A DNA stretch of 64,000 bases from a virus. The first letter of the stretch is position 1. Every line of letters starts with the position of its first letter. The stretch is from the IMG/VR virus record IMGVR_UViG_3300009183_000091, positions 1 through 64,000 of that record; one strand, given 5' to 3'. The position numbers and the translations under genes were made by a program. The notes under the pieces are model-generated. The model saw only the letters and a program-made list of their open reading frames with translations. It had not been told where the DNA came from and did no database searches. Positions 7,294 to 47,034 of the stretch are shown one piece after another.

Positions 7294-7301
7294 TATCTTT
7301 G
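7294..7301 (+). promoter_or_regulatory. -7 box TATCTTTG of leader RNA promoter
   Basis: Exact match to TAnnTTTG, 15 nt after a stop codon. No clear TTG lies 17-23 nt upstream, so recognition would depend on the -7 box. Transcription should begin about 7306-7308, putting helix A of the leader RNA at the 5' end. Confidence 0.6.
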
Positions 7302-7393
7302 CTGAGTTCCATCTCACACTATACGAACATAAGGTATTAATGAAGCCTTGCAATGAAACTGAAGTGAGATGCAGTGGATTTGCGAGGTTTTTT
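7302..7393 (+). ncRNA. pseudoknot-type leader RNA, copy 1
   Basis: Helix A is CATCTCAC (7310-7317) with GTGAGATG (7364-7371). Helix B is CCTTGCAA (7346-7353) with TTGCGAGG (7380-7387), eight pairs including one G-U, followed by six T. The helices interleave (A-B-A'-B'), giving an H-type pseudoknot or two alternative structures, with B acting as a terminator. The joining segments TGAAA (after B) and TGGAT (before B') are shared with the copy at 46497-46581, whose stems differ in sequence. A second CATCTCAC (7403-7410) abuts the ATG of the next gene and could compete for GTGAGATG. Not assigned to a known RNA family. Confidence 0.65.
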
Positions 7394-7410
7394 AATTTTA
7401 TACATCTCAC

Positions 7411-7941
7411 ATGAAAAAAGAAAGAAAAGATTTCTTCAAGATTACCTTTGAAGACATGCAACTAGCCAAAGATTTTTTTGAAAAAGAAAAGCATTACATT
7501 GAATGGTTTTATGCTGTTTCTGAATATTATCAGGGCAATTTAATTCAAATTAAAAACAAAATCGTTCAAAAATATTTCAATAATTATAAAAAAACGATGG
7601 ACTTCATAATAAAGTCTAAACACATTGGTGAAAAAGGCGGTTTGCAAAAGGCTATGAATCAAGAAGTTAAGTCTCAGACCCTAGAAGGGGTGGTAGAGCA
7701 ACCCTTGTACCATCCCCCCTACCTAATTAGTAATAATAAAATAGAAAATATAAATAATAAAACATTAATTAAAAAAGAAGAATTAATAAACAAGTTAGAA
7801 AAATTAATAAGTGAAGAAAATTTCGATAGGGAAATGACTTATGATTACATGAATGATTATATTCAGTTTGCTGAGTATTATTATTCAGATGAAGAAAGAA
7901 AAAAGATAGGCGATGATTTGTTACAATTTAAAATAAAATAA
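7411..7941 (+). CDS. putative replication-associated protein
   Basis: 176 aa. The N-terminal part (about residues 23-70: HYIEWFYAVSEYYQ, then KYFNNYKKTMDFIIKSKHIG) resembles the N-terminal region of small phage replication proteins in Bacteroidota phages; this is weak recognition from memory. A low-complexity Asn/Lys linker leads to a helical acidic C terminus. No DnaC-type ATPase motif is present. The ATG follows directly after a CATCTCAC element that can pair with the leader RNA, so expression is likely controlled by that RNA. Confidence 0.55.
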   Translation: MKKERKDFFKITFEDMQLAKDFFEKEKHYIEWFYAVSEYYQGNLIQIKNKIVQKYFNNYKKTMDFIIKSKHIGEKGGLQKAMNQEVKSQTLEGVVEQPLYHPPYLISNNKIENINNKTLIKKEELINKLEKLISEENFDREMTYDYMNDYIQFAEYYYSDEERKKIGDDLLQFKIK

Positions 7942-8337: not shown

Positions 8338-9048
8338 ATGCGTACAGCTTATATATATAAAATAACAAATCCAAAAGGAAGAATATATGTAGGTTCTACC
8401 GTTAAATTAGATCAAAGAATTTCTAGTTATAAAGGCTTACATTGCAAATTACAAGTAAAAATATATAGGTCAATAAAAAAATATGGATGGGAAAATCATT
8501 TATTTGAAATATTAAAAGAATGCAAAGAATTAGATAGATATTATTATGAATCTTATTATGGTAATTTTTATAATGTATTATCTAAAGAAAATTTAAATTT
8601 AGCATTGCCAAAATCAGACATGTTAGGTTTTTGCTTATCAGAAGAAACCAGAAAAAAAATAGGTAAAGCACATAAAGGTAAAATAATAAGCGAAGAACAA
8701 AAAAAACAAATGAGAGAAAATCTTAGATTGTCATTAATAAAAGATGGTCATCCAATGAAAGGAAAAAGCCCATGGAACAAAGGTAAATCATTTCTTTCTG
8801 GCGAAAAAAATCCTATGTTTGGAATTAAAAGATCTGAAGATTGGAAAAGACAACATTCTGAAAGAGCTAAATTAAATAATGCTTCAGGAGAAAATCACTC
8901 CGCTTCAAAAATAGTTTTAGATTTTAATACTGGGATATATTATTTAACAGTAAAAGAAGCTAGCGAATCTCTTGGGATAAATTATTCAACCTTAAGATGC
9001 AAATTAAATAAATCTAGAAAAAATAAAACGAGTTTAAAATATGTGTAA
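8338..9048 (+). CDS. GIY-YIG homing endonuclease
   Basis: 236 aa. The N-terminal GIY-YIG nuclease has YIYKITNPKGRIYVGST, the downstream Arg (LDQRISSYK) and the Glu/Asn region (YESYYGNFYNVL). The middle has NUMOD3-type repeats (SEETRKKIGKAHKGK; GEKNPMFGIKRSEDWKR), and the C terminus a NUMOD1-like helix-turn-helix (TVKEASESLGINYSTLRCKL). It is a free-standing mobile endonuclease lodged in the early region. Codon use is more A/T rich and Lys rich than its neighbours, consistent with recent insertion. Confidence 0.9.
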   Translation: MRTAYIYKITNPKGRIYVGSTVKLDQRISSYKGLHCKLQVKIYRSIKKYGWENHLFEILKECKELDRYYYESYYGNFYNVLSKENLNLALPKSDMLGFCLSEETRKKIGKAHKGKIISEEQKKQMRENLRLSLIKDGHPMKGKSPWNKGKSFLSGEKNPMFGIKRSEDWKRQHSERAKLNNASGENHSASKIVLDFNTGIYYLTVKEASESLGINYSTLRCKLNKSRKNKTSLKYV

Positions 9049-14367: not shown

Positions 14368-14682
14368 ATGAGCTGGCATCATTGGATAGAAGAACATCAT
14401 CCAGAAGCGGACATAAACTACGATTACTTACTTGAATTAGCAATAAGTAGTTATAGCTTAATGAAGAAGTCAAGGAAGATGGGCCACATAGATAGAGTCC
14501 ATTACATAATAATGTGGTGGTACAAACATAAACATAAGTTTAAAACATATAACACTACAGTAAAGCTAGGTATAGCATTAGAGATTCATCACGCTACAGT
14601 AATTCATTACTATAAACGTAGAAAAATATCAAGAATATACGAAGAAGAAACAAAATGTATTAAAGACTTTATAGAAAGCTAA
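14368..14682 (+). CDS. small HTH protein resembling DnaA domain IV
   Basis: 104 aa. The C-terminal part (about residues 66-88: LGIALEIHHATVIHYYKRRK) matches the DnaA domain IV signature in which a (D/H)HxTV(I/M)HxxKK-type helix recognises DnaA boxes. The N-terminal half is helical and basic (SLMKKSRKMGHIDRVHYI). No AAA+ domain is present. The stop overlaps the DnaB start, and a GC-rich hairpin lies just upstream. A role in origin recognition or helicase recruitment is a reasonable inference. Confidence 0.5.
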   Translation: MSWHHWIEEHHPEADINYDYLLELAISSYSLMKKSRKMGHIDRVHYIIMWWYKHKHKFKTYNTTVKLGIALEIHHATVIHYYKRRKISRIYEEETKCIKDFIES

Positions 14683-16061
14683 TGAGCATACAGATAAGAG
14701 CAGAGAAAATAATCATACATGATATACTTGTCAACCCAGGTGACATGCATAAAATCATGGAGAAAATTGATACTACCATGATCACTGACCCTGTGAACAA
14801 GGCCGTATTTGAAGCTATCACATCTCTGTATTTATCTCAAGAAGCAGTTAACACTACATCTTTATTCCATGAGGTATGTAAACTTAAATCAATAGCAGCA
14901 AAGAAAGCAGCATCAGAGATAAGCTCCTTAATAGCGGTAAGTCCAGGGAAAGAAGAGCTTAAAGATGCTATGAACTTAGTGGTATCAGAAACGATTAGAA
15001 ACGAACATGTTACATTGTCTCAGACAATATCCAATATGGCTAGTCAACCAGACTATGATCCAGGTAATATACTTAATCTATTACAGGACCACATCACAAA
15101 TAACAAGTACAAGTCTATACTCAACAAGAAAAGCTATGACAATCAAACCCTACTAAATGAGTTAGAGGAGAAGATGAAGATAGCAGCGGACAGTAGTGGA
15201 GTATCAGGGATTCGCACTGGCTATCATAAGTTTGATGAGATTACTTCTGGTATGCAACCAACTAACCTTATCATCGTAGCCGCAAGGCCTGGTGCTGGTA
15301 AAACTCAGATGGGACTTGGTATAATGAAGACAGCATCCATAAGAGGTAACAAAAAAGGTTTGTTTATATCATGCGAGATGGATGAGGTTCAAGTAATGAA
15401 GAGACTAATAGCCGTTGACTCAGGTGTTGAAGGTTATTCAATTAAGAAAGGAAAGCTATCCCCAACAGAAAGAGGTAGGTTCGAGCGATCTAAAAGAAGA
15501 ATAGCAAATTCAGGCGTTAAGATTGTAGGTGGAGCATTCACAATAACAGATGTTATCACGATGGTTTACAAAATGAAATACTCAGAAGGATTGGATTATG
15601 TAGTAGTTGATTACATACAGAAGATTACAAGCCCTGGGGCGCAGAATAGAACCAATGAGGTAGGTGATGTATCAAGAAAGCTAAAAGATATGGCAAATGA
15701 GCTTAAAATACCTGTAGTGGCCCTTGCTCAGCTGTCTAGAGCAGTGGAGATGAGAACGGATAAGAGGCCTATCCTAAGTGACCTTAGAGAATCAGGAGAT
15801 ATAGAGCAAGATGCTGACATCGTAGCATTCCTTTACAGGCCTGCTTATTACTTGCCAGGAAACGAGAGAGACACTAGTCCACTAGCGAAACAAGCATTTG
15901 TTTACTTGGCTAAGCATAGAGATGGTGAGTTAGCAGATATAGAGCTAGAGTTTGAATCAGATATTCCAGCATGGAGAAATCCTAATGAGATTGGAGATTA
16001 TGATGAAGAGGTAGTTCAATCTACTATACAAAGATTTGACAATGAAAACTATATATTTTAA
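14682..16061 (+). CDS. dnaB: replicative DNA helicase, DnaB family
   Basis: 459 aa, the usual length. An N-terminal helical domain (residues 1-100) leads through a linker to the RecA-like ATPase. Walker A is ARPGAGKTQ (~residues 200-208), Walker B region VVVDYIQ (~307-313), DnaB motif LAQLSR (~348), then ESGDIEQDAD. It is a hexameric 5'-3' fork helicase. It follows the DnaA-like gene with overlapping stop/start. No primase gene was recognised in the window, so primase must come from the host or from outside the window. Confidence 0.95.
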   Translation: MSIQIRAEKIIIHDILVNPGDMHKIMEKIDTTMITDPVNKAVFEAITSLYLSQEAVNTTSLFHEVCKLKSIAAKKAASEISSLIAVSPGKEELKDAMNLVVSETIRNEHVTLSQTISNMASQPDYDPGNILNLLQDHITNNKYKSILNKKSYDNQTLLNELEEKMKIAADSSGVSGIRTGYHKFDEITSGMQPTNLIIVAARPGAGKTQMGLGIMKTASIRGNKKGLFISCEMDEVQVMKRLIAVDSGVEGYSIKKGKLSPTERGRFERSKRRIANSGVKIVGGAFTITDVITMVYKMKYSEGLDYVVVDYIQKITSPGAQNRTNEVGDVSRKLKDMANELKIPVVALAQLSRAVEMRTDKRPILSDLRESGDIEQDADIVAFLYRPAYYLPGNERDTSPLAKQAFVYLAKHRDGELADIELEFESDIPAWRNPNEIGDYDEEVVQSTIQRFDNENYIF

Positions 16062-26975: not shown

Positions 26976-29900
26976 TTAAAACTTAGGAATCTTTGGTCCA
27001 AAACTTTGTTTAGGAAATTGTCCTGGTTTTGAGCTGCCTCTACTTCTTCTTTTCTTAGGTTCTTCTTTTACTTTTCCAAGATATGGACTAATGTTGTCAT
27101 CATAAAACTTATCTGGCTTTTTATCTTTAAAGTAGAAATCTTTATCTCTTGATTTTATTTGAAGCAATACTTCGTTAGCATCAGCATCACCTTCTAGAAG
27201 CGCACCAAAACTTTCTACCATTTCATTGAAGTTATCTTTTCCTAATATTGTGTTTAAAGATTTTTTACTGCTTCCTCCCATTTTTTGAAAAATATTTAGA
27301 TTCTCATACTCTTTTGCAACTTCTTCGTAGAATTTTTTAACCGCAAATGGATTGTCTTTAAGGTATTGATCCCTTTCAGCTGGAGTCATTTTCTTCATTT
27401 TTCTCATTTCAAACTCAGTAGGCTCCCATCCTTTCCAGAAATCATTAAGTTCTGTTTTATCAAGTTTACTTATATCTCCTTCAGTATTATATAATCCAAC
27501 AGCTACATTAGCTATATTTGCCATTCTTTGGAATACTGGTATATTATTGTAAAAATCTCTTCCTCTAAGAGTGTTGAGAGCCATTTTTGAAATTAACCCA
27601 CTTATACCTAATGTACCCATATTACCCTGTATGTTATCAGCAAAAGAGTCATAAAGTATTCTGTTCTTTTTGATGTCAGATTCTTCTTCATCATCTTCAT
27701 TATATCTTAACCAAGCTACTATTCCACCTGTTGATATAAGTCCAAATGGAACTCCTGCAAAAAGAGTGTAATATACAACATCAGATAAAGCCTGTGCTCG
27801 CTCATTATTGTTTAAACTTTTCCAATCTGAAATATCTATTAATCCTTTTGAAATTTTCTTAACCATTGCATTATTAGCAGATAAGTAAGGGAAAAGAAGT
27901 CTGTATGTTGATTGATATGTCGCATTTGAGATAGTCTCTCTAGCTATTGATGGCTGCTGAGTTCTTTCCGTTTCTTCAAACCACCTCTGCATTGCATTTT
28001 CTTGCGCTGTTTCAAAATCTTGTCCTTTAGCTACATTATTCCTAAATTGAGCTAATGCAAAACTACCTCCTCCTCCAGGAGCTGTTATAGCTATAAAGTC
28101 ACCTAGTTTTATAGGAGACATACTTACATTTGTAGCTAGCTTAGTAAGGTCTTTAATCGCTTGATTTATATTTGAATGGACTTTATTATTAGCTCCATTA
28201 AATATTCTTGACTCTAAGAATTTATCTATACCAACTTTTAATGCTTGAGTATCTTGAGTAGCCATACCTCCAGTAATCCTTGTCCATAAATAACTATTAT
28301 CTAAGAAAAACTCTTTCATAAACTTAGCTTCTCCTTTGTTTATAGGAACAGGAGCAATTAAAACATCATGAGGATAAACTCCGTCTTTAATACCAGCCGT
28401 ATAATAGTTTAACGCTGATACAGCTTGTTGACTTATTGATTTGAATCGTAATAACAATGTTGTTAATGCGTTAGCGTTAGCCATTCTAGATACAAAGTCA
28501 TTTTGGAATGGGCTTTTATCAGTTAAAACAATTCCTAAATCAGTAATGAATGAGTTATATCTATTTACATCATTCAACTTATTTATTAAATGAGGAACAT
28601 TATTTTTAGCTAATAGAGAATAAACATTTTGAACCACAGGTATAAATTGTTCAGCATGAGCCATTGACTCAATATATCTATTAAACATTTCATCAGCACT
28701 AATAGCTTCAAAAGGATATGCTGAAGCATTATTCCTATGCATCATCTGAGGAGCTATAGCAGATATATTACTACTATTCCCCCCCTCTAAATCTAATATA
28801 CTTCCAGGATCTGTTGAAGCTCCTGATTTAGGTTCAGGCCAATAGTTTCCTTTTTCTATTTCAATACCATATAACGATTCTATTACTGGTATAAATCTAT
28901 CAGCAAGATCTCCATTATACATATCATTTAATAGATTATAGTAATCCATAAGTTTTTTATTCTTAGGATTATTCATATAATCAATTATTTCTTGAGGATT
29001 TATTGCATTTTGTTTTTTAAGTATTTCAATATTTGTTTTTCTTTTTTCAGCATCTTTATTGTTTATTAACCCGTAATAATGAACTACTTGAGCGTTAGTT
29101 AAACTATCAGATTCTCTTCCTTTTAAAGAAGTCTCACCTGCACTTATACCAGAAGAATTGTTTAATGTATATCTACCTCCAGCAGTACCAAATATCTCTC
29201 TCTTCTTTGCATTATACTCTCCTATTGTCCTAATTATGTAGTCTTGTTTTTTATATTCAGCCTCTCTTATTGGCTTCATTATTTGATTTTCTAACCAAGC
29301 TCTCATTTTAGGAGAACCTTTACCAAGTAATTTAACAGCTGTTTCTAAATCTCTAATAGCAAAAAGTGTAGATTGTTTAGCTCTTCTTAATGGTCCTTGA
29401 GTTTTTGATTTTAAATTTTCAACATTTGATTGTTCATTAATATAAAATTTAACATTAGACAAGTCTGCCTTAGGATTATTTTTTATAAATGTTTCAAACC
29501 TTGATTTATTCATAGATTGACCATTGATAACAACTACACCGTTTTTATCATCAAATTTATCTAATATTTTTTGCTTTCCATTAAGAATAACTGGTTTACC
29601 ACCTAGTTCCTCTAGAAACATAGCTTGATCTTTCCTTTTTCTATTGTCTTCTGTTATTTCATCAAACTTTGTATCGGCTCTACCTGTAGTTAAAATGTTA
29701 TCTATATTATCATTTAGTATTTTTAATTCTTCCTGAGTCATAGAATCTAAACTATCAAATGCGCCTTGTTTATACAGCTCACTTATTTTACGTTGAGCAG
29801 GTAAACTTATCTTACCTGTCTTTCTTCCAGTCTTTTTATTATAAGATATTATTTTTTTACTGTTAGCCTTTACCTTATCAGTTATATCTTTTATTAATTG

Positions 29901-32900
29901 CTCTTTAGATTTTTCAGCTATCTTAGCTTCTTTACCTTCTAGCAAAGTATTAACAGCCTCAAGATTCTTTTGAATATCAGCTACGTTTTTAGCTTTATCA
30001 AAGTTCTTAGCTACGTAACTTTTAACCTCAGTCTTTTTATAGTTGTCTACAGGAAGATTATCATTAACAAATTTCTTAGCTCTTGCTTTTAAAGCATTAA
30101 ACGCTTTAGGGTCTATATCTTTACCTTTAGCAGCTTCTAATTCTTGATTAAATGCATCAAACTCAGAAGCTCTTAAATCATCTGTGTTAAAATTAAAATG
30201 CTGAGGCACTAAGTCAACTAATGCTTTTCTATACTGTGAACTTATCTTAGCTCTTTCTTTAGGGTCTGTAATAGCTTTATATGCATCAGTGTTACGTAAT
30301 GCTTTCATACCAGCATCAATAGATTGTCTAAAGTTACCAGCAGTAACACCACCCACTTCAATAGCCTTAGCGACAGTCTCTATTGTAGCGTTCCATACTT
30401 TATCAAGTCCAGGAGCAATATTAACCATGGTTGTTCCTTTTGGTGTATTCCATTTAGCCTTACGTAATGTATCAGCTAGACTCTTAGCTACTTGAGCTTC
30501 TTTTGTAGGTTGTTTAGTTTTAGCCCCTTCTTCTTTTAGCATTGAGTCATATATAGACTTCATCTCTTTATTCAGCTTAATGTCTATTTCACTTCCTTTA
30601 ATACCGCTATAAATATCAGTTAACCATACTTTAAAGTTTTCAAATATCTTATTCAACGATTCTATTGGAGATTTACCTTCCGCTAAATATTTCTCAAATC
30701 CTCTTGCAAAATACTCACTTGTTTCTGTAGTCCAAGTTTTTGTTCCAGCAGCTTTTAAAATTTTATTTCTCTCAGTGTCAGTTAAATAGTGTTCATATAC
30801 GTGAGCTAACTCATGCAATGGAGTTGACACGTTAGGATCTGTTAAAGCGTATATTATAGCTTTTCCATCCATAGCTACCATTGCTCCTTTAGCTTTTCCA
30901 CCTTTATCTTTTTGAAATAAAGCTAATCCTTTTTCTACTTCCGCTTTTAGTTCGGGTGTTATGTCTATGGAGTTTTGAGTGGAGGTTTCTTGATATTCCC
31001 CATCTTTATAGTTAGTCATATCACTCTCACGACCTTTAGTAACGTTTTCTATCTCCACCGTTTTCGGTTCTTGTTTAGTCAATCCTTTAATTACATTTCC
31101 TAATATACCTAAATTACCTTCTGTTGTACTTCCATAAAACCCTTTCATTCCTTTGCCACCTACTTTTAACCCCTCACCACTAATTTTTCTTATTGGATTA
31201 TTTTCTTCTCTTTTTTGGGCAGAATGGAATAATTCTTTTTTAGTACCAAAATCATTTTGGATTTTTTCTGCCATATCCTTTCCAATAGTATTTTCTATCT
31301 CTTTAAGGGTTGCATCTTCTTTCCTATATATGATTTGAGTATCATCTCCTTTATCAAAAACATTTATTTTATAAGTGCCATCACCATTAGGAGAATACTC
31401 AATTCTGTCAACAGAATTTTGAAGATTATACCTATCATTTTGTTGCTCACCTGTTGTCCATGCTATTTTGGTAGCACCTTGTTTTACTGCTTCTTGAAGA
31501 GCTACTTTTGCACCAAGTTTTGCCCAAGCATTTGTATCGGTAACAAATGGAGCGTTTTCTACTCCTCTATTTTCATTCTCTTGTTCAAAATTATATAATT
31601 CATCTCTTAAATTTGAAAGAGAATTTTCTCCCTCAAATCTTAATTTGTAAATTTTATCTTTTAATTTTCTTTTTGTAGATTCGTAATTGTTAGATTTTTT
31701 TTCAATCTCGTTTATTTCTTCTTCAAGAGCATTAAAGTCTCTGTTATTTCTAACATTCATTTGAGCTTCTTTTAATCTTGATCTTTCTATATATAATTCA
31801 GTTTTTTCTTCTTTTGTTAATGGTTTTAAATTCTCAATTTTAAGTTCTAATTTTTTAACTTCATCTTCAGCTTTTTCTACCTTTTTCTTAATATTATCTC
31901 TTTCTTTTTGAACTTCTTTATTTTTAAATCCTCTTCTTTTTCCTTCTTGACCCCAATCACTTTGTACTTCTTCAAGAAACAAAACTTTATTTCCATCTGC
32001 ATCAGTTCTTGTATTCATCCTTAAATGAACAAGAATGTTAGATTCGTCAAAATGAGAAGATTTATATTTTTCATTCACATAAGCAAACCCTTGTTGATAA
32101 GATACGTCTTTTGGTAACTTTGATTCTAATTGACTTAACTCAGATTTCATTTCATTAACCTGATCTTTTTCTTGTTGAGTTGGCATTCTTAATCCTATAT
32201 CTTTTATAAGATTATTATATTCAGTTAATTTAAAATTATAATTTTTTACAGCATCCATGTTTTCAGGCATTGTAATTAATACCTCCTTGTAGTTTTCTTT
32301 TTCTCCTTTTAATTGATAATCAGAATATTTAGTTCTCTCAATAGGTTTTCTTCCTTTATATTTTTCAGGATTTAATATTATATCATTTGCTTCATCTTCG
32401 TTATTTATCTCCATTAAAATAGCTCTTTGCGGACGAGATTTACTATAAATATTCCAACTTTTTGCTGGATTTTGCTTAATAAACAAATCATTTTTATCAA
32501 GTCTTGATATAAAATCTAACGTAGAATCACTTTCTTCAGGATCTGTATAGAATGAACTAAGCCTTTTGTCCGATGATTCTTTTACCACTTCAACAACATT
32601 AATTCTATTGTCTTTTAAATATTGTTGTATATCTGATTTAGAAATAGAATTAGCTGCGTTTTCTTTTAAATAATCTTGTAACCCTGTCCAAGACATTTCT
32701 TCTTTATTACCCCCTCTAGAAAGTAATTGTGTGGCCCATTGATTGCCACTCATTTTTTCCTGTTTTACTTGAGATAATGCTTTTTCTGTATTGGAATAAA
32801 AACCATTCACAACATCTACATCTGCATTTCTAAGATTTACATTTTCTCCATTTACAGTTCCTTGAAATAAAACCCCTTCTAATTTAGATACATTTTGTTC

Positions 32901-33698
32901 TGTATCTTTTACGAAATCTAACCTACTATACATTTCGGATTTATCAACTCCAGCTCTTTTAGCCATTGTTCCAACCATTCTATCCATAGCTACAGCAGAA
33001 GCAAATGATTTAACTCTATCAAGTCCAAATAACTCTCTATTAATTCTATATAAATCTCTAAAGTTTTTAGGTGTTATTCCAGACTTTTCAGCTACTTTAT
33101 CTTGCTCTTCAGAAGTTGGCTCTGTCACAACTTCTTCTGTTTTTGTGACAGGAGTAACAGTTTCAGTAACCTCAGCAGTAGGATTGTATTCAAACTTATT
33201 ATCACCTACTTTAGTAAATCCATTTTTCTCATAAAAGGATTCTAATCTGCCTAAATCAGTTTCTTCATCTAATTCAGTAGTAGCATCTAATACTACCTTC
33301 TTACCTAATTTATCGGCTTGTTTTTTAACGCTCTCAAGAACTTTAGTGCCTATTCCTTTACCTCTATTTTCTTTGCCTACATACACAGCTGTTAAGGATA
33401 AATCTTCCCCTTTTGGAGTTAATAAAACACTAGCATCAGGATTCTCCTTACTTACTTCAGTTGTTACCTCTTGAGCTACTTTGTAATTGTCTTTAGCTTC
33501 CGTCACAGGGACAGTAGGTTTAATAGCAGATGGAAGTTTAAATGAAGAAGCCATAGCCTCATCAGCTTTTATCCCTCTGATTTTTAAGTCGTTCTCCATC
33601 ATTACTTTGTCAAGATAACCTTCACTAAGTAACTTCTTAAATTCACTTTCAGAGTAGACCTTATCGTCTCCCTTTATCTGGTATTCACAATCTGCCAT
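26976..33698 (-). CDS. 2,240-aa polyvalent virion protein (GNAT, zincin, LPD domains)
   Basis: Giant protein of the cargo block. N terminus: GNAT acetyltransferase core (residues ~70-165; NRGKGIGTKVLESVKK and YEKNGFTKVG). Residues ~560-760: a polyvalent-protein domain with FLEEVQSDWGQEGKRRG and IAWTTGEQQNDRYNL. Residues ~957-965: zinc metallopeptidase-like LHELAHVYEHY. Long helical regions follow, and residues ~1860-1960 resemble a C-terminal large-polyvalent-protein domain (KLGDFIAITAPGGGG, EETERTQQPS). Such proteins are packed in virions and ejected to modify the host; the polyvalent class is established knowledge, but the role here is inferred. Confidence 0.85.
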   Translation of the reverse strand: MADCEYQIKGDDKVYSESEFKKLLSEGYLDKVMMENDLKIRGIKADEAMASSFKLPSAIKPTVPVTEAKDNYKVAQEVTTEVSKENPDASVLLTPKGEDLSLTAVYVGKENRGKGIGTKVLESVKKQADKLGKKVVLDATTELDEETDLGRLESFYEKNGFTKVGDNKFEYNPTAEVTETVTPVTKTEEVVTEPTSEEQDKVAEKSGITPKNFRDLYRINRELFGLDRVKSFASAVAMDRMVGTMAKRAGVDKSEMYSRLDFVKDTEQNVSKLEGVLFQGTVNGENVNLRNADVDVVNGFYSNTEKALSQVKQEKMSGNQWATQLLSRGGNKEEMSWTGLQDYLKENAANSISKSDIQQYLKDNRINVVEVVKESSDKRLSSFYTDPEESDSTLDFISRLDKNDLFIKQNPAKSWNIYSKSRPQRAILMEINNEDEANDIILNPEKYKGRKPIERTKYSDYQLKGEKENYKEVLITMPENMDAVKNYNFKLTEYNNLIKDIGLRMPTQQEKDQVNEMKSELSQLESKLPKDVSYQQGFAYVNEKYKSSHFDESNILVHLRMNTRTDADGNKVLFLEEVQSDWGQEGKRRGFKNKEVQKERDNIKKKVEKAEDEVKKLELKIENLKPLTKEEKTELYIERSRLKEAQMNVRNNRDFNALEEEINEIEKKSNNYESTKRKLKDKIYKLRFEGENSLSNLRDELYNFEQENENRGVENAPFVTDTNAWAKLGAKVALQEAVKQGATKIAWTTGEQQNDRYNLQNSVDRIEYSPNGDGTYKINVFDKGDDTQIIYRKEDATLKEIENTIGKDMAEKIQNDFGTKKELFHSAQKREENNPIRKISGEGLKVGGKGMKGFYGSTTEGNLGILGNVIKGLTKQEPKTVEIENVTKGRESDMTNYKDGEYQETSTQNSIDITPELKAEVEKGLALFQKDKGGKAKGAMVAMDGKAIIYALTDPNVSTPLHELAHVYEHYLTDTERNKILKAAGTKTWTTETSEYFARGFEKYLAEGKSPIESLNKIFENFKVWLTDIYSGIKGSEIDIKLNKEMKSIYDSMLKEEGAKTKQPTKEAQVAKSLADTLRKAKWNTPKGTTMVNIAPGLDKVWNATIETVAKAIEVGGVTAGNFRQSIDAGMKALRNTDAYKAITDPKERAKISSQYRKALVDLVPQHFNFNTDDLRASEFDAFNQELEAAKGKDIDPKAFNALKARAKKFVNDNLPVDNYKKTEVKSYVAKNFDKAKNVADIQKNLEAVNTLLEGKEAKIAEKSKEQLIKDITDKVKANSKKIISYNKKTGRKTGKISLPAQRKISELYKQGAFDSLDSMTQEELKILNDNIDNILTTGRADTKFDEITEDNRKRKDQAMFLEELGGKPVILNGKQKILDKFDDKNGVVVINGQSMNKSRFETFIKNNPKADLSNVKFYINEQSNVENLKSKTQGPLRRAKQSTLFAIRDLETAVKLLGKGSPKMRAWLENQIMKPIREAEYKKQDYIIRTIGEYNAKKREIFGTAGGRYTLNNSSGISAGETSLKGRESDSLTNAQVVHYYGLINNKDAEKRKTNIEILKKQNAINPQEIIDYMNNPKNKKLMDYYNLLNDMYNGDLADRFIPVIESLYGIEIEKGNYWPEPKSGASTDPGSILDLEGGNSSNISAIAPQMMHRNNASAYPFEAISADEMFNRYIESMAHAEQFIPVVQNVYSLLAKNNVPHLINKLNDVNRYNSFITDLGIVLTDKSPFQNDFVSRMANANALTTLLLRFKSISQQAVSALNYYTAGIKDGVYPHDVLIAPVPINKGEAKFMKEFFLDNSYLWTRITGGMATQDTQALKVGIDKFLESRIFNGANNKVHSNINQAIKDLTKLATNVSMSPIKLGDFIAITAPGGGGSFALAQFRNNVAKGQDFETAQENAMQRWFEETERTQQPSIARETISNATYQSTYRLLFPYLSANNAMVKKISKGLIDISDWKSLNNNERAQALSDVVYYTLFAGVPFGLISTGGIVAWLRYNEDDEEESDIKKNRILYDSFADNIQGNMGTLGISGLISKMALNTLRGRDFYNNIPVFQRMANIANVAVGLYNTEGDISKLDKTELNDFWKGWEPTEFEMRKMKKMTPAERDQYLKDNPFAVKKFYEEVAKEYENLNIFQKMGGSSKKSLNTILGKDNFNEMVESFGALLEGDADANEVLLQIKSRDKDFYFKDKKPDKFYDDNISPYLGKVKEEPKKRRSRGSSKPGQFPKQSFGPKIPKF

Positions 33699-34168: not shown

Positions 34169-37100
34169 TTAACATTTCTTTTTAATTATATTATTGCTCT
34201 CTAGTTTGTTTACAATCGATGTAAATTTACTATCTATTTTTGTAATTCTTTCTACTTTATCCCCATATTTTTCATTAAATGCTTTCATTGCCTTAACTTT
34301 CTTAGCAGGACTCATTGAGTTTATACTAGATAATTCATCAAATTCATTAGTAGTCTTCGTCTCAGTAACTACTTCTGGAGCTTCTTTTACTTCCTCTGTA
34401 GTAGTAACTTCTTCCGTAGGAGTTATTTCTGTTTGTTCTTCTTGAACCATTCCACCAGGGCTAACCTCTTCTTCGCTTGTTTCAACGATAGGCTGGGTTT
34501 CGATAGATTCTTTCCCTTCTCCGACTTCACTTGATACCCTTGATTGGTTTTCTTTAACATTTTCTTGTTGTTTGTTTATAGTTTCAATAGTTTTATCTAC
34601 TATTGATTGTATATCGCTATTTACTTGATCTAATGGAGGATTAGATAAGGCGGATTGAGTAGGATCAAGTTTTTTAGCTTGCTCTTCTAATGTTTGCTTT
34701 TTCATTAGCAAGTCAACCATTTTAACTCTATCTTCTCCCTCTATCTCATTACTAATTTTATCATTTACCTCAACAAATTTATCAAAGTTTAATATTTGAT
34801 TTTCAGCTTGCTCCTTAGATATTTCGTTAGTTAATTGTCTGTTAGCAACATAAGCCATGTATTGCTTTTTTAATACTTCATTACTAGCCGTAAGTCTAAA
34901 TGCATCAAGATCCTTAGCACTCATGTCGCTTATATTACCTCCAGAGAATACCTCAACAGCTTTAAATGTACTACCTAACGCTCCACCTCCTATTCCCCCC
35001 ATAGCGGAAGCTTCAGCAGTCATGGATAAATAATCTTGCCAAGTAGCACCTGTATTAAACGCATCTAAATCTAACCAATTATCAGATAGTTCTTTCCATC
35101 CAATTTCTAATAATGCTGTAGATGCACCCTCTGCAATCGCCTCTCTAGGAGCAGATTTTAAACCAGTAGCAGATATAGCACCTATATTAGCGAATACCTC
35201 TGATTTAATAATCTTATCTACTACTTCTATTGAAGAGTTTTTAGGTATTTTAGCAAGAGCTTTATTTAAAATTGGCGTTAACATGTCTCCTAAAAAAGAA
35301 GAAGTGTTACCCTTCATAATAGCACCAAGACCTAAATCTTCTATAACACCCATTCCTATAGCGTAAGGAAGAGCAATAAGCTTTTTCTGATACTCTGGTA
35401 AATCCTTTAATTCAGGATTACTATACAATTCTTTATTAATATCAGCATAAGCAATAGAACCAAATCCTGCTATCTGCCCAGCTTTTTCTAATACAGTTCC
35501 TTTAGTTATCCTTGCAACAGGATTAATATAAACACCAGCTACAGATTCAGCTACACCTAATAATGATTTTGTAACAAATCCTTCTTCTTTAGCATAAGCT
35601 TCAGTCTTACCTAAATCAAAAAACCCTAACATTTCATCAGGCCATTCTTGAAGAAGCTTCATTTTTCTTTCAGCTGTTTCTTCTTTTGTCTCGCTAATAA
35701 TACCTACCGCTTTTTCTATATCCATCATTACATCAACAGTAGATGTTAATGATTTTACCCCACCGTTTACAATGCCTGAAACAAGAGAACCTACAACAGT
35801 ATTAGGCCCTTCAAAATTAGCTCTTTCACTTTGTACTACAGCAGCATAAGTTGACTCTATATCTTTCTGAACTCCCTTTAATTGAGCCATAGTTTGATTT
35901 ACCTCAGCTTCTGTAGCTGTAATATTATCGTATAATCCTTTATTACCTTGTATAGCTTTATTAGCATTTGTAATAGAGGTATTTAGATTTGTTTGTAGTT
36001 CAGTTATCTTATTAGATAATTGAGTTACTTTTTGGGTATATACATCATCACCCATTAAATCTCTTTCTTTTTCAAGTAAGTCTATTTCAGAAGCTAGTTT
36101 CTTTTGTTGATCTCTTGTGCTTTTTTTCATAGCTTCTAACCTCTGTAAATCTGGTGTTACAGCTTCGTTATATTGCTTTGATTTTTGAGTAAGTACCTCA
36201 AGTTTTTTACCTAATTCATCTTGTTCATTCTGTAAGAAATCAGTAAACTCACTAGTATTTAATTTTTTAGTGTTAGGTGCGTATATAGATTCTCCCTCAA
36301 ACCCTTTACCAAAAGATACAGAAATAGGATTGCCCTTTTTATCAAATGAATAAAATAAAGATTGATTGTTTCTAGCTACTTCTCTTTGAGTTAATTTAGT
36401 AAATGCGTTTACAGGATCGTTATAAGCCATCCAGTCATATACATATTTTTGAGCAGGAGTTTCTTGAACTCCACTTAACCATGACTTCAATTTAGCTACT
36501 CTATCTTTATCTTGCTCGCTATCTTCTCCTAAATCTATCTCTAGGTTACTAACCATTGTTCCTTTAGGGGCAATTAAAAGAACTCTATCCATGTCAAAAA
36601 TAGTAGCTCTTTCATACAGGTCTTTATCTCCTCCTGTAAAAAGAGTAGAACCTAAAGGCTTAACTGTTATTCCTAATCCTATTCCTTCAATGTAATCTTT
36701 AAAGTCTCCTTGACTTTGATTAATCAAGTTGACATCTATTCCAGTGATAGGTTTAATATAAGTAGATAAATTCTTATTAGCCCATTTCTCAACTTCTTCA
36801 ACATTTTTAAACGTATTAAACGGAGTGTCCTTAAACTTTGTTTTACCGTAAGTAATATTAGATACTTTACCTGTTTGATTAAATTCATAAAAAGGATTGT
36901 TAGCTCCTACTTTATATTCTTCACCATTAACAAATACACTACCTTGCAATTCTTCAGCTATTCTAGTGTCTTCCTTACTCTTTTTAGATAGACTAGCTAA
37001 ATATCTTTTTTGAGCATCTGCGGTAGAATCATCCATTACACCAGTAAGACCAACACCAAAGAAAGGGTCATCACCTTTTAAAAATGGTTCTCCATTTTCA

Positions 37101-38852: not shown

Positions 38853-41186
38853 TTAATTGCCAGGTTCGCTTGAATAGGTTGAACCAGATTGACCATCAGA
38901 TCCTTTACCACCTCCAGCATTTAAATTCTTAGCTCCAAATTTAGGATCTTGACCAGCAGCATTATTATATCCAATTATAGCTGATGCATTGTAACCATTA
39001 GGTGTTCTAAGTACATCATCACTTGTTCTCCACTCAACGTTATTAGGGGTATATTCTCTTACACCTGTGGTTGGATTAAGTTCTCCTGGAGTAAACATAA
39101 CTCCATATTGATTTCCTATATAATTATTCCCTTCCTTTCTTACTACATTTTCAGTGACACCAAAATATCCATCATTAGGCACACTAAACGCAGAACCATT
39201 TTTATTTGAAAGATACATTGATTGTCCATTTTTAGCAGCCGCTTCATTACCCCTAGTTATTTCAGAAGCAGCAACAAATTGCTGTCTCCATTCTCCTTTA
39301 GGATTCATCATCCAAACCTTATATTCTTTATTCGTTGTTTTACCTGCTGCAATTTTAGGGTCAGTAACACGTAAAGATGTTTCAGTTAGGTTACCTCCTT
39401 CCATTGCTTCAATCTGCGCCCTAGTATCGCTATTGTGATCTTCTCTTGACTTATTAAATCTCCAATTCTCAGCATCAATTCTATCTTTATTAGCTTTATA
39501 AGATAAATCTTGACCTCTTCTTTCAGTATATCCATTAGCCTCATTAGTTATAGTGCTAATGATACTTTCTTTAGGCATTTGAGCGAACATATATCTACTA
39601 ACAGAATCAATAACAGCATCTCTCTCTGACTTAGGCAAATCAGGCATGTGTCCTTCTATCCATTCTGTTACTATATTTTCATATCCAAAATCATAGTATT
39701 TTCTTTTTAATTGAGCATAAGTTTCATAATCAGGACTTGTGCTTTTTAACTGTTGAATAAGACTATTCATTTCTTTTATCTCATCAGGATTAAAGTTTTT
39801 TCCAGTCTTCATATTTATAGCCCTTTCAATAGCTCCCTTATCCATTAACTGTTTTACGATTTCATCAGCTTGTTTATAAGCATCAGGTATCTCTCTAATG
39901 TTTTTCTCTAAATCAGATATATTCTTAGTTCCATCAAAATAACCTTCCACTTCTCCTGGCAACATACCAGCATTAAAGTTATTCAACATCTTTAACATTC
40001 TCTCATTGGCCCAAACAGCAGGCTTACCATCAGCTGTAACTAATTTGCTTCTAAGATCTTTAAAGTTCTCATTTACCTTTAGGAAGTTTTCAGCTATAGA
40101 TTGTTGTTGACGAAGGCCTTTTAAGAAATCAGTATTTCTCATTAATTCTTCTGGCTTGTCTTTAAAAGCATCTAACCATGGAGCTATCCAATCCATGTGC
40201 TTTTCAGCAAAGTAAGGTTTAAATTGTTTAGCAATATCAGGCATTTCCTTTAATTGATCAACTAACGCTTCCTTCTTTTTAATCTCAGTAGCAATAGCCC
40301 TTTTCCTAGCGTCATATAGCCCTAGTGGTAATAATCCTCCTGCTCCTGAATATATCGTCTGAGAACCAATCCTACTGCCTGTAAATGTACCTACAGCAAT
40401 GTTTCTTCCAGCTTCAGGATAATAGTCTTGAAGTCCTAGTTTTTCTATTACTAATTGAGGAGCTTTAACTTTTGCTTGTCTTGCTTGCTCGTATATTTCT
40501 TCTCTTGAAGGTGCTTGATAGTTCTCTCCTTTAGTAACAAGTGATGTCCATTCTTCTTGATTTGGTGGGACAGCTCCTGTTATTCCTGCTACTGTTGCTC
40601 CACTTCCCCCTACAGCTGCTGGTGCATTGGGGTCTGTAGTAGGTATATTATTCTGTGTTGTTGTTTCTTTTTTAACTTGGTTATCTATCTCCTCATCTGT
40701 TGTATCAATTTCTTTCTCAACTACATTTGTAGCTGCTAGTAACTGTTCTTTCTCTTGAAGTGTAGGTTTAGGATCAGCAACAATTTTCTCAGTCATTGCT
40801 TTTTTAATAGCTGAGCCTGTATTAGGGTCATCAGCATTTAAAGCCGTAAATTGTTCAGCTGTTACAGGGGTAGCTTCTATTACTTCTCTATATCCTAGTC
40901 TTGAAGATAGCCCATCTTTTTTATATCCGTACTCTTTATTAACTAGAGCATTAGGGTCATTATAAGTAGTGCCTTGTTTTGTGCCTGTTAAAGGGTCAGA
41001 TGCTTTAGGTTCAAAAGGTTTCTTAACGTCTCTTATTTCTTTTTTAGAATAAAGTTTTTCTCCACCCATTTCCTCACGACCAGCATTGATAGACTTCATT
41101 TGTCTTCTCTCCTGACGTATCTCTTTCTTAGTCTTTTGAGTATTCGGAGTTCCTTCTTCTGGATCTTCTATATTTTTTTTAGCCAT
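38853..41186 (-). CDS. 777-aa internal virion (cargo) protein
   Basis: Lys/Glu-rich N terminus (GTPNTQKTKKEIRQERRQMK), a disordered Pro/Thr region to about residue 240, and then a long helical body. The C terminus is Gly/Asn/Ser rich (AGGGKGSDGQSGSTYSSEPGN). There is no catalytic motif. In podoviruses of this layout the proteins between the tail muzzle and the giant polyvalent protein are internal or ejected. Follows the 220-aa gene by 11 nt. Confidence 0.7.
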   Translation of the reverse strand: MAKKNIEDPEEGTPNTQKTKKEIRQERRQMKSINAGREEMGGEKLYSKKEIRDVKKPFEPKASDPLTGTKQGTTYNDPNALVNKEYGYKKDGLSSRLGYREVIEATPVTAEQFTALNADDPNTGSAIKKAMTEKIVADPKPTLQEKEQLLAATNVVEKEIDTTDEEIDNQVKKETTTQNNIPTTDPNAPAAVGGSGATVAGITGAVPPNQEEWTSLVTKGENYQAPSREEIYEQARQAKVKAPQLVIEKLGLQDYYPEAGRNIAVGTFTGSRIGSQTIYSGAGGLLPLGLYDARKRAIATEIKKKEALVDQLKEMPDIAKQFKPYFAEKHMDWIAPWLDAFKDKPEELMRNTDFLKGLRQQQSIAENFLKVNENFKDLRSKLVTADGKPAVWANERMLKMLNNFNAGMLPGEVEGYFDGTKNISDLEKNIREIPDAYKQADEIVKQLMDKGAIERAINMKTGKNFNPDEIKEMNSLIQQLKSTSPDYETYAQLKRKYYDFGYENIVTEWIEGHMPDLPKSERDAVIDSVSRYMFAQMPKESIISTITNEANGYTERRGQDLSYKANKDRIDAENWRFNKSREDHNSDTRAQIEAMEGGNLTETSLRVTDPKIAAGKTTNKEYKVWMMNPKGEWRQQFVAASEITRGNEAAAKNGQSMYLSNKNGSAFSVPNDGYFGVTENVVRKEGNNYIGNQYGVMFTPGELNPTTGVREYTPNNVEWRTSDDVLRTPNGYNASAIIGYNNAAGQDPKFGAKNLNAGGGKGSDGQSGSTYSSEPGN

Positions 41187-46440: not shown

Positions 46441-46468
46441 ATTATTTTTTTTTTATAAAAAAACTAAA

Positions 46469-46476
46469 CAAATATA
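46469..46476 (-). promoter_or_regulatory. -7 box for the 1,517-aa tail gene
   Basis: The - strand reads TATATTTG, 28 nt upstream of the ATG at 46440. It faces away from the + strand TATATTTG at 46489-46496, so two -7 boxes stand back to back within 28 bp. Confidence 0.6.
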
Positions 46477-46488
46477 CGAATTATTTAT

Positions 46489-46496
46489 TATATTTG
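46489..46496 (+). promoter_or_regulatory. -7 box TATATTTG of leader RNA copy 2
   Basis: Exact TAnnTTTG on the + strand, opposite to the surrounding late genes. Start expected about 46501-46503, just 5' of helix A of the structured RNA. No clear -33 TTG, as for copy 1. Confidence 0.6.
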
Positions 46497-46581
46497 TTGT
46501 GTCAGGTAGCAGTGACAATTAAGAAATTTATATAAATCCCTATGATGAAAGAACTGCTACTCTGGATTCATAGGGTTTTTT
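46497..46581 (+). ncRNA. pseudoknot-type leader RNA, copy 2
   Basis: Helix A is GTAGCAGT (46506-46513) with ACTGCTAC (46553-46560). Helix B is CCCTATGA (46538-46545) with TCATAGGG (46568-46575), both perfect 8-bp. B' is followed by six T (46576-46581), and the ATG of the homing endonuclease follows 3 nt later. Order A-B-A'-B' and joining segments TGAAA and TGGAT match copy 1 at 7302-7393, although none of the stems share sequence. The hairpin B plus T tract can terminate; pairing A with A' could oppose it or form a pseudoknot. Confidence 0.65.
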
Positions 46582-46584
46582 ATT

Positions 46585-47034
46585 ATGGAAGAAATTTGGG
46601 AAAAAGTATCGTGGGCAAAAAATTATTTGATTTCTAACTTAGGGAATGTTTTTTCATTGAAGTCAAAAAGATTAATGAAAAAAAATGTAAGCAATAGAGG
46701 TTATGAGCGAGTTACTATAAAAGGAAAACAAGTATCAGTACATAGATTGGTTTGCGTTGCTTTTTTAGGAGAAAATAAAAATAAAAAAATAGTAAATCAT
46801 AAAAATGGAATAAAAACAGATAACAGAATTGAAAATTTAGAATGGGTAACTTGTAGAGAAAATACAATGCATTATTATTCTTCTATTCCTCTTAGGGAAA
46901 TAAAGTTAAAAACATGTATTAGATATGAAAAATGGATGTATATAAATGGAAAAAATAGATCTATAGGAAGGTTTAAAACACCCGAAGAAGCAATTAAAGC
47001 ATATTATGATAAATTAAAAACTATAAATTTATAG
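46585..47034 (+). CDS. HNH homing endonuclease with AP2-like domain
   Basis: 149 aa. NUMOD4-like N terminus (EEIWEKVSWAKNYLISNLGN), HNH core (VHRLVCVAFLGENKNKKIVN, then HKNGIKTDNRIENLEWVT), and an AP2-like DNA-binding tail (NGKNRSIGRFKTPEEAIKAY). It is on the + strand, inserted between two - strand virion genes, with its own promoter and structured leader RNA. It converges on the 63-aa gene region with 2 nt separation. Confidence 0.9.
   Translation: MEEIWEKVSWAKNYLISNLGNVFSLKSKRLMKKNVSNRGYERVTIKGKQVSVHRLVCVAFLGENKNKKIVNHKNGIKTDNRIENLEWVTCRENTMHYYSSIPLREIKLKTCIRYEKWMYINGKNRSIGRFKTPEEAIKAYYDKLKTINL

Follow-up and report, generated by a model that had tools for sequence, protein, structure and literature searches.

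What is the element that stands directly ahead of a homing endonuclease gene at 46489-46581 of the window (the whole 64,000-nt stretch analyzed, from IMG/VR virus record IMGVR_UViG_3300009183_000091), and what does it share with a second copy at 7294-7393? An earlier note had described both as leader RNAs built from two interleaved helices. On re-reading, its coordinates, sequence, and spacings between helix strands (24/28, 7/10, and 7/8 nt for copy 1/copy 2) were correct, as were the TGAAA and TGGAT joints, the tract of six T's, and the position of the ATG, 3 nt further on.

Architecture of the two window elements

Both elements lie on the forward strand, and the ranges above include the promoter box. 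Copy 1 opens with a Bacteroidota -7 promoter box, TATATTTG (46489-46496), followed by a hairpin, P1 (46500-46517; TGTCA and TGACA around the loop GGTAGCAG), which was recovered by both descriptor and minimum free energy (MFE) fold and whose loop forms the kissing strand A (46505-46512). A 20-nt A/U-rich linker (46518-46537) leads to hairpin 2 (46538-46575; present in the MFE fold and matched by the covariance model R1, see below), comprising the stem P2 (CCCTATGA/TCATAGGG), an internal loop of TGAA (46546-46549) and GGAT (46564-46567), the inner helix P3 (AGA/TCT, 46550-46552/46561-46563), and the apical loop A', ACTGCTAC (46553-46560). A terminator-like T6 tract (46576-46581) completes the element and precedes the gene for a homing endonuclease with NUMOD4 and HNH_3 domains (Pfam; 46585-47034, forward strand), which is predicted to be transcribed by read-through from copy 1.

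Copy 2 repeats this order, with a promoter box, TATCTTTG (7294-7301), a P1 hairpin (7306-7328; GTTC and GAAC around the loop CATCTCACACTATAC) carrying strand A at 7310-7317, and a hairpin 2 (7346-7387, likewise an R1 match) formed by P2 (CCTTGCAA/TTGCGAGG), the internal loop TGAA (7354-7357)/GGAT (7376-7379), P3 (ACTG/CAGT, 7358-7361/7372-7375), and the apical loop A', GTGAGATG (7364-7371), ahead of a T6 tract (7388-7393). The first gene after it (7411-7941, forward strand) encodes 176 a.a. with no family hit and belongs to the same gene block as a DnaB helicase (14682-16061). A NUMOD3/GIY-YIG homing endonuclease lies two genes past copy 2 (8338-9048), and 26976-33698 encodes a 2240-a.a. protein whose N-terminal part includes a GNAT acetyltransferase domain. 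Strand A of copy 2, CATCTCAC, recurs exactly at 7403-7410, directly 5' of the ATG at 7411, and by complementarity A' could also pair with this start-codon region. Such a second copy of A was seen only in copy 2 among 36 leaders and was discarded as a general feature.

The earlier note had overlooked P1 around A and P3 flanking A', in both copies, and its plain H-type pseudoknot, made of two interleaved helices only, gives way to a different fold in which A and A' each occupy the loop of a covarying hairpin. Strand A, in the P1 loop, forms the kissing helix with A', the apical loop of hairpin 2, itself composed of P2, the UGAA/GGAU internal loop, and P3 (3-5 bp in the family) and followed by the U-tract. 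When the kissing helix is left out, the predicted MFE structure of copy 1 is exactly P1 plus P2/P3, with the A and A' loops open. The 15-20-nt linker is about the length that would be needed to span a stacked rod of P1, kissing helix, P3, and P2.

In the window, a descriptor of the helices alone (two interleaved 8-bp helices with at most one G-U each, then T5) found the two copies and one AU-rich chance site (34592-34669). When the promoter, P1, the kissing helix, P2, and T4 were all required, exactly the two copies remained among the 102 TAnnTTTG boxes of the window and none at the 391 such boxes in Markov-shuffled windows.

Covariation and distribution of the family

Homologues were sought in IMG/VR. 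A first pattern, limited to TTTG, the joint sequences, and a run of T's, returned true relatives among many chance matches, and a tighter one (AATGAAAC...GTGGATTT...T6, with no selection on the helices) matched 45 viral contigs, all 45 of which form P2, pair A strongly with A', and have a TAnnTTTG box upstream. The family is thus larger than the two copies first claimed, both of which are real. The tighter pattern gave seven matches in 84,980 cellular genomes (GTDB), none with P2, an A/A' helix, or the promoter; the element is restricted to viruses in the collections searched, the cellular pattern search covering the main class only.

In an alignment of 25 sequences, four helices (P1, the kissing helix, P2, and P3) covary, with 94.1% of cells paired, two-sided change in 21 of the 26 pairs (4-8 in slid controls), and a covariation score of 0.626 (0.06-0.11 for slid versions). 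Because the first screen had selected on the A and B helices, we recounted covariation on 19 sequences chosen on the joints and T-tract only, P1 never having been a criterion. The kissing helix was 100% paired in this set, with six of its eight pairs doubly changed, and P1 was 88% paired, with all five pairs doubly changed. The proposal that the copies belong to a functional family of RNAs whose helices covary, and the expectation that related phages would hold homologues with conserved joints and covarying A and B helices, are strongly borne out by these homologues and by covariation counts far above those of the slid controls. Two hairpins with complementary loops, all of whose helices covary, make a kissing pair almost certainly the correct structure, while chance inverted repeats are excluded, to a vanishingly small residual probability, by the covariation, the recount, the 45/45 pattern result, the shuffled controls, and the topology scan described below.

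Across aligned homologues, A lies in the P1 loop or directly before it, and the P1 stem varies in sequence; the main-class P1 loop consists of A plus ANNATA, and P1 is weak or absent in one subgroup (L176, L011, and L107). The joints are the sole strongly conserved unpaired positions of the main class. A register scan of the alignment revealed no conserved alternative antiterminator pairing, only the four helices covarying, and no conserved alternative pairing was found in the linkers of homologues. An antiterminator formed by linker AAGG and P2 CCTT is available in many members and was rejected, being neither general nor accompanied by covariation. All helices can coexist and no conserved element competes with P2, so that A-A' pairing, earlier suggested to compete with terminator B, is instead compatible with the terminator stem.

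Model R1 was built from the copy at 7302 and 24 homologues, with no promoter or T-tract columns and with copy 1 excluded. Even so, copy 1 is matched at 46492-46576 with a score of 31 bits and an E value of 6e-4; copy 2, a member of the alignment, scores 78 bits, and viral elements reach 100 bits. R1 had no match among 299 Marixanthotalea-family genomes under strict filters and without a positive-control genome, a weak test, and a 29-bit Psychroflexus match lacking a T-tract looks like chance. No Rfam 15 family met its gathering threshold in the window or at three homologous loci, and the best matches of both copies in a relaxed search, the comparison proposed at the outset, fell far under the gathering scores. 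We found no earlier description of the element in the literature. It represents an apparently undescribed RNA family of phages infecting marine and freshwater Bacteroidota, the host being suggested by the promoter type and by cultured relatives.

Genomic setting and related leaders in other phages

P1 begins ~4-8 nt past the TAnnTTTG box, near the expected +1, and T5-T9 directly follows P2 in 55 of 55 R1 matches examined, although R1 holds no T columns. The base of the P2 stem is C/G-rich in most members. The first downstream ATG mostly occurs 17-32 nt past P2, the exceptions being copy 1 and locus L213 of G022, described below (8-9 nt), and six loci at 48-51 nt. A DnaD-like/DUF6291 replication protein is the first or second downstream gene at 30 of 51 loci, a Prim-Pol/DUF3987 primase-helicase takes that place in ~11 of the 51, and homing endonucleases follow in the window, at L213, and at loci L266 and L319.

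Long stretches of a sister phage, IMG/VR record G022, match the window phage at 77-93% identity. At the copy 2 locus, G022 keeps the flank and promoter position and carries a different leader, with P1 AGTCGAA[CTCACTC]TTCGATT, loop partner GAGTGAG, P2 GACCCTAGTCA/TGGCTAGGGTT, and T6, and thus the topology is kept while the sequences turn over. Copy 1 and its endonuclease form a ~580-bp insertion (46454-47033, promoter, leader, and endonuclease) missing from the corresponding G022 site, where 3736 and 3755 are contiguous. One gene away, G022 has a cassette whose promoter, leader, and first codons are 92% identical to copy 1 (window 46459-46608 aligned to G022 2878-2728); its endonuclease is only 36% identical to that of the window. 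The displaced cassette indicates that the copy 1 leader moves as one component of a mobile expression cassette. The region that follows the swapped leader, on the reverse strand of G022 (L400, ~39800-40060), looks non-coding, contains self-complementary segments (ACGGGTGTC...GTCACCCGACATC), and has no Rfam match.

A topology scan of 3.85 Mb (score >=50), requiring neither promoter nor joints, found 80 kissing-terminator sites against 2 expected from shuffles, most with a correctly placed TAnnTTTG. The same genomes carry 1-3 leaders each, with differing A/A' pairs and internal loops, the latter being UGAA/GGAU, UGAU/UGAU, or GGA/AAA by subclass. Among 19 leaders outside the main class, seven precede NUMOD4-HNH endonucleases, as judged from their sequences; separate subclasses devoted to such endonucleases occur at L191 (6739, 8846), L340 (1016, 4434), L176 (10421), L182 (2764), and L343 (2770), some with UGAU/UGAU-type internal loops. 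The topology also recurs, with no sequence similarity, in the cultured phages FL-1, 11b, phi18:3, Lillamyvirus, and Elemovirus, and in Cellulophaga phi18:3, Flavobacterium 11b, and Lillamyvirus the kissing leader lies upstream of replication genes. In phi13:2 and phi19:3, P2 and A/A' are present before the same gene and P1 is not tidy. No kissing terminators were found in lambda, Bacteroides phage B40-8, or half of crAss001. A second covarying kissing terminator is shared by FL-1 (L353, 3691-3800) and IMG/VR phage G021 (L422, 3994), with the kissing pair GGGCTGAA/TTCAGCCC in one and GGATAGGA/TCCTATCC in the other.

Possible functions of the leader

The elements have the layout of an attenuator, that is, a promoter-proximal GC-based hairpin and U-tract ahead of a gene. 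From the covarying fold, together with promoter, U-tract, position, and gene context, we infer, with somewhat better than even confidence, a promoter-proximal attenuator whose terminator is stabilized by kissing and which meters replication and endonuclease genes. Transcription would begin at the TAnnTTTG promoter just before P1, so that a phage mRNA would open with the element as its first ~80-90 nt. P1 would display A in its loop, and hairpin 2, on emerging, would pair A' with A, with a probable coaxial stack of P1, the kissing helix, and P3 on P2. Within one genome, predicted energies average -11.4 kcal/mol for cognate A/A' pairs against -1.9 kcal/mol for non-cognate ones, so the pairing is in cis. 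P2, a GC-based stem followed by U5-9, would act as an intrinsic terminator, so that by default transcription would end early, ~10-50 nt ahead of the first codon, and the gene would be expressed only from polymerases that read through. The kissing clamp may set the read-through fraction, either by aiding closure of a terminator whose own loop is otherwise ~20 nt long or, when unmade, by sparing that closure. Against this reading, the P2 loop exceeds what a simple terminator scan accepts, and no conserved antiterminator helix competes with the terminator. As an antiterminator pairing is typical of attenuators but not universal, we limit the claim to an element that works like an attenuator. The short gap from terminator to ATG could be explained by compact phage genomes alone.

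Comparable parts are known from other systems. Loop-loop pairing controls plasmid pT181, whose repC leader shares with trp-type leaders a promoter-proximal intrinsic terminator ahead of a replication or biosynthesis gene, as in the layout seen here; in our elements, however, kissing takes place in cis, and the search for an alternative antiterminator helix yielded none. The RNAI and RNAII of ColE1 form a kissing complex through similar loop-loop helices of 6-8 bp, in which both strands change together as the sequences diverge, whereas kissing here is intramolecular and joined to a terminator stem. In T4, leader hairpins of homing endonuclease genes hide the ribosome site, a likeness in that a structured leader restrains (here, by prediction) endonuclease expression, but the present leader is terminator-like, kissing, and travels with its gene.

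The earlier note had left the choice between a small RNA and a switch. A stand-alone, abundant ~85-nt RNA acting in trans, made from a strong promoter and terminator with the neighboring gene incidental, would suit the element's own promoter and terminator, the compact fold, and the leaders' place inside co-directional gene arrays, often 19-25 nt past the upstream stop codon. We consider it unlikely, given that a start codon from a narrow gene set is almost always close downstream, which favors a cis-acting leader, that A and A' vary freely as pairs and so make no fixed trans target evident, and that G022 replaced the whole sequence at the copy 2 locus with its topology kept. The hosts here use little Shine-Dalgarno pairing, and the leader might serve as a 5' protector and translation leader, its +1 hairpin and kissing fold resisting RNases and its U-tract providing a landing site for the ribosome or S1. 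P1 does begin only a few nt from the expected +1, and a U/A-rich stretch stands just before the ATG, but a C/G-rich stem base directly followed by U5-9 is how an intrinsic terminator is laid out and is unneeded for protection, and this role seems still less probable.

The put RNAs of phage HK022 bind the zinc-binding domain of RNA polymerase beta' and suppress termination, and putL folds ~70 nt into two stem-loops close behind an early phage promoter (PMC9378689), so a nascent two-hairpin fold that binds RNA polymerase and makes it ignore downstream terminators, and its own U-tract, deserves consideration. The window elements, like putL and putR, are short cis RNAs with two stem-loops just after a promoter, where early phage transcripts begin. 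Compared by description, however, put comes from a gammaproteobacterial phage, no terminator tract is described for it, where our elements always end in one, and its structure paper reports no loop-loop kissing (PMC9378689); conserved loop residues also vary among our subclasses, and a put-like role is very unlikely. That variation likewise argues against one sequence-specific regulator: a switch in which a ligand or protein binds the internal UGAA/GGAU loop would account for the strong conservation of the joints in the main class, but other subclasses within the same genomes have different loops, and we regard it as highly improbable. A long shot of similar standing is that terminated ~85-nt leaders act in trans, kissing nascent leaders that share their specificity, and so tune termination in replication operons, the released leaders accumulating with phage genome copies by analogy with the antisense copy control of ColE1 and pT181. 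If so, coordinated diversification of A/A' would define incompatibility or superinfection groups. Avoidance of cross-kissing among leaders of one genome gave no signal beyond class make-up (permutation P = 0.35), which lends this reading no support.

On the attenuator reading, replication operons and homing endonucleases would be metered by this leader. Gene control is little known in phages of Bacteroidota, and the family adds an RNA architecture that seems to be undescribed, is restricted to phages, and sits at the switch to DNA replication. At one locus the topology has outlasted complete replacement of the sequence, which indicates that selection acts on the kissing terminator itself. The presence of the element in cultured phages makes it directly testable, and its paired, cis-working A/A' specificities are potential orthogonal terminator parts.
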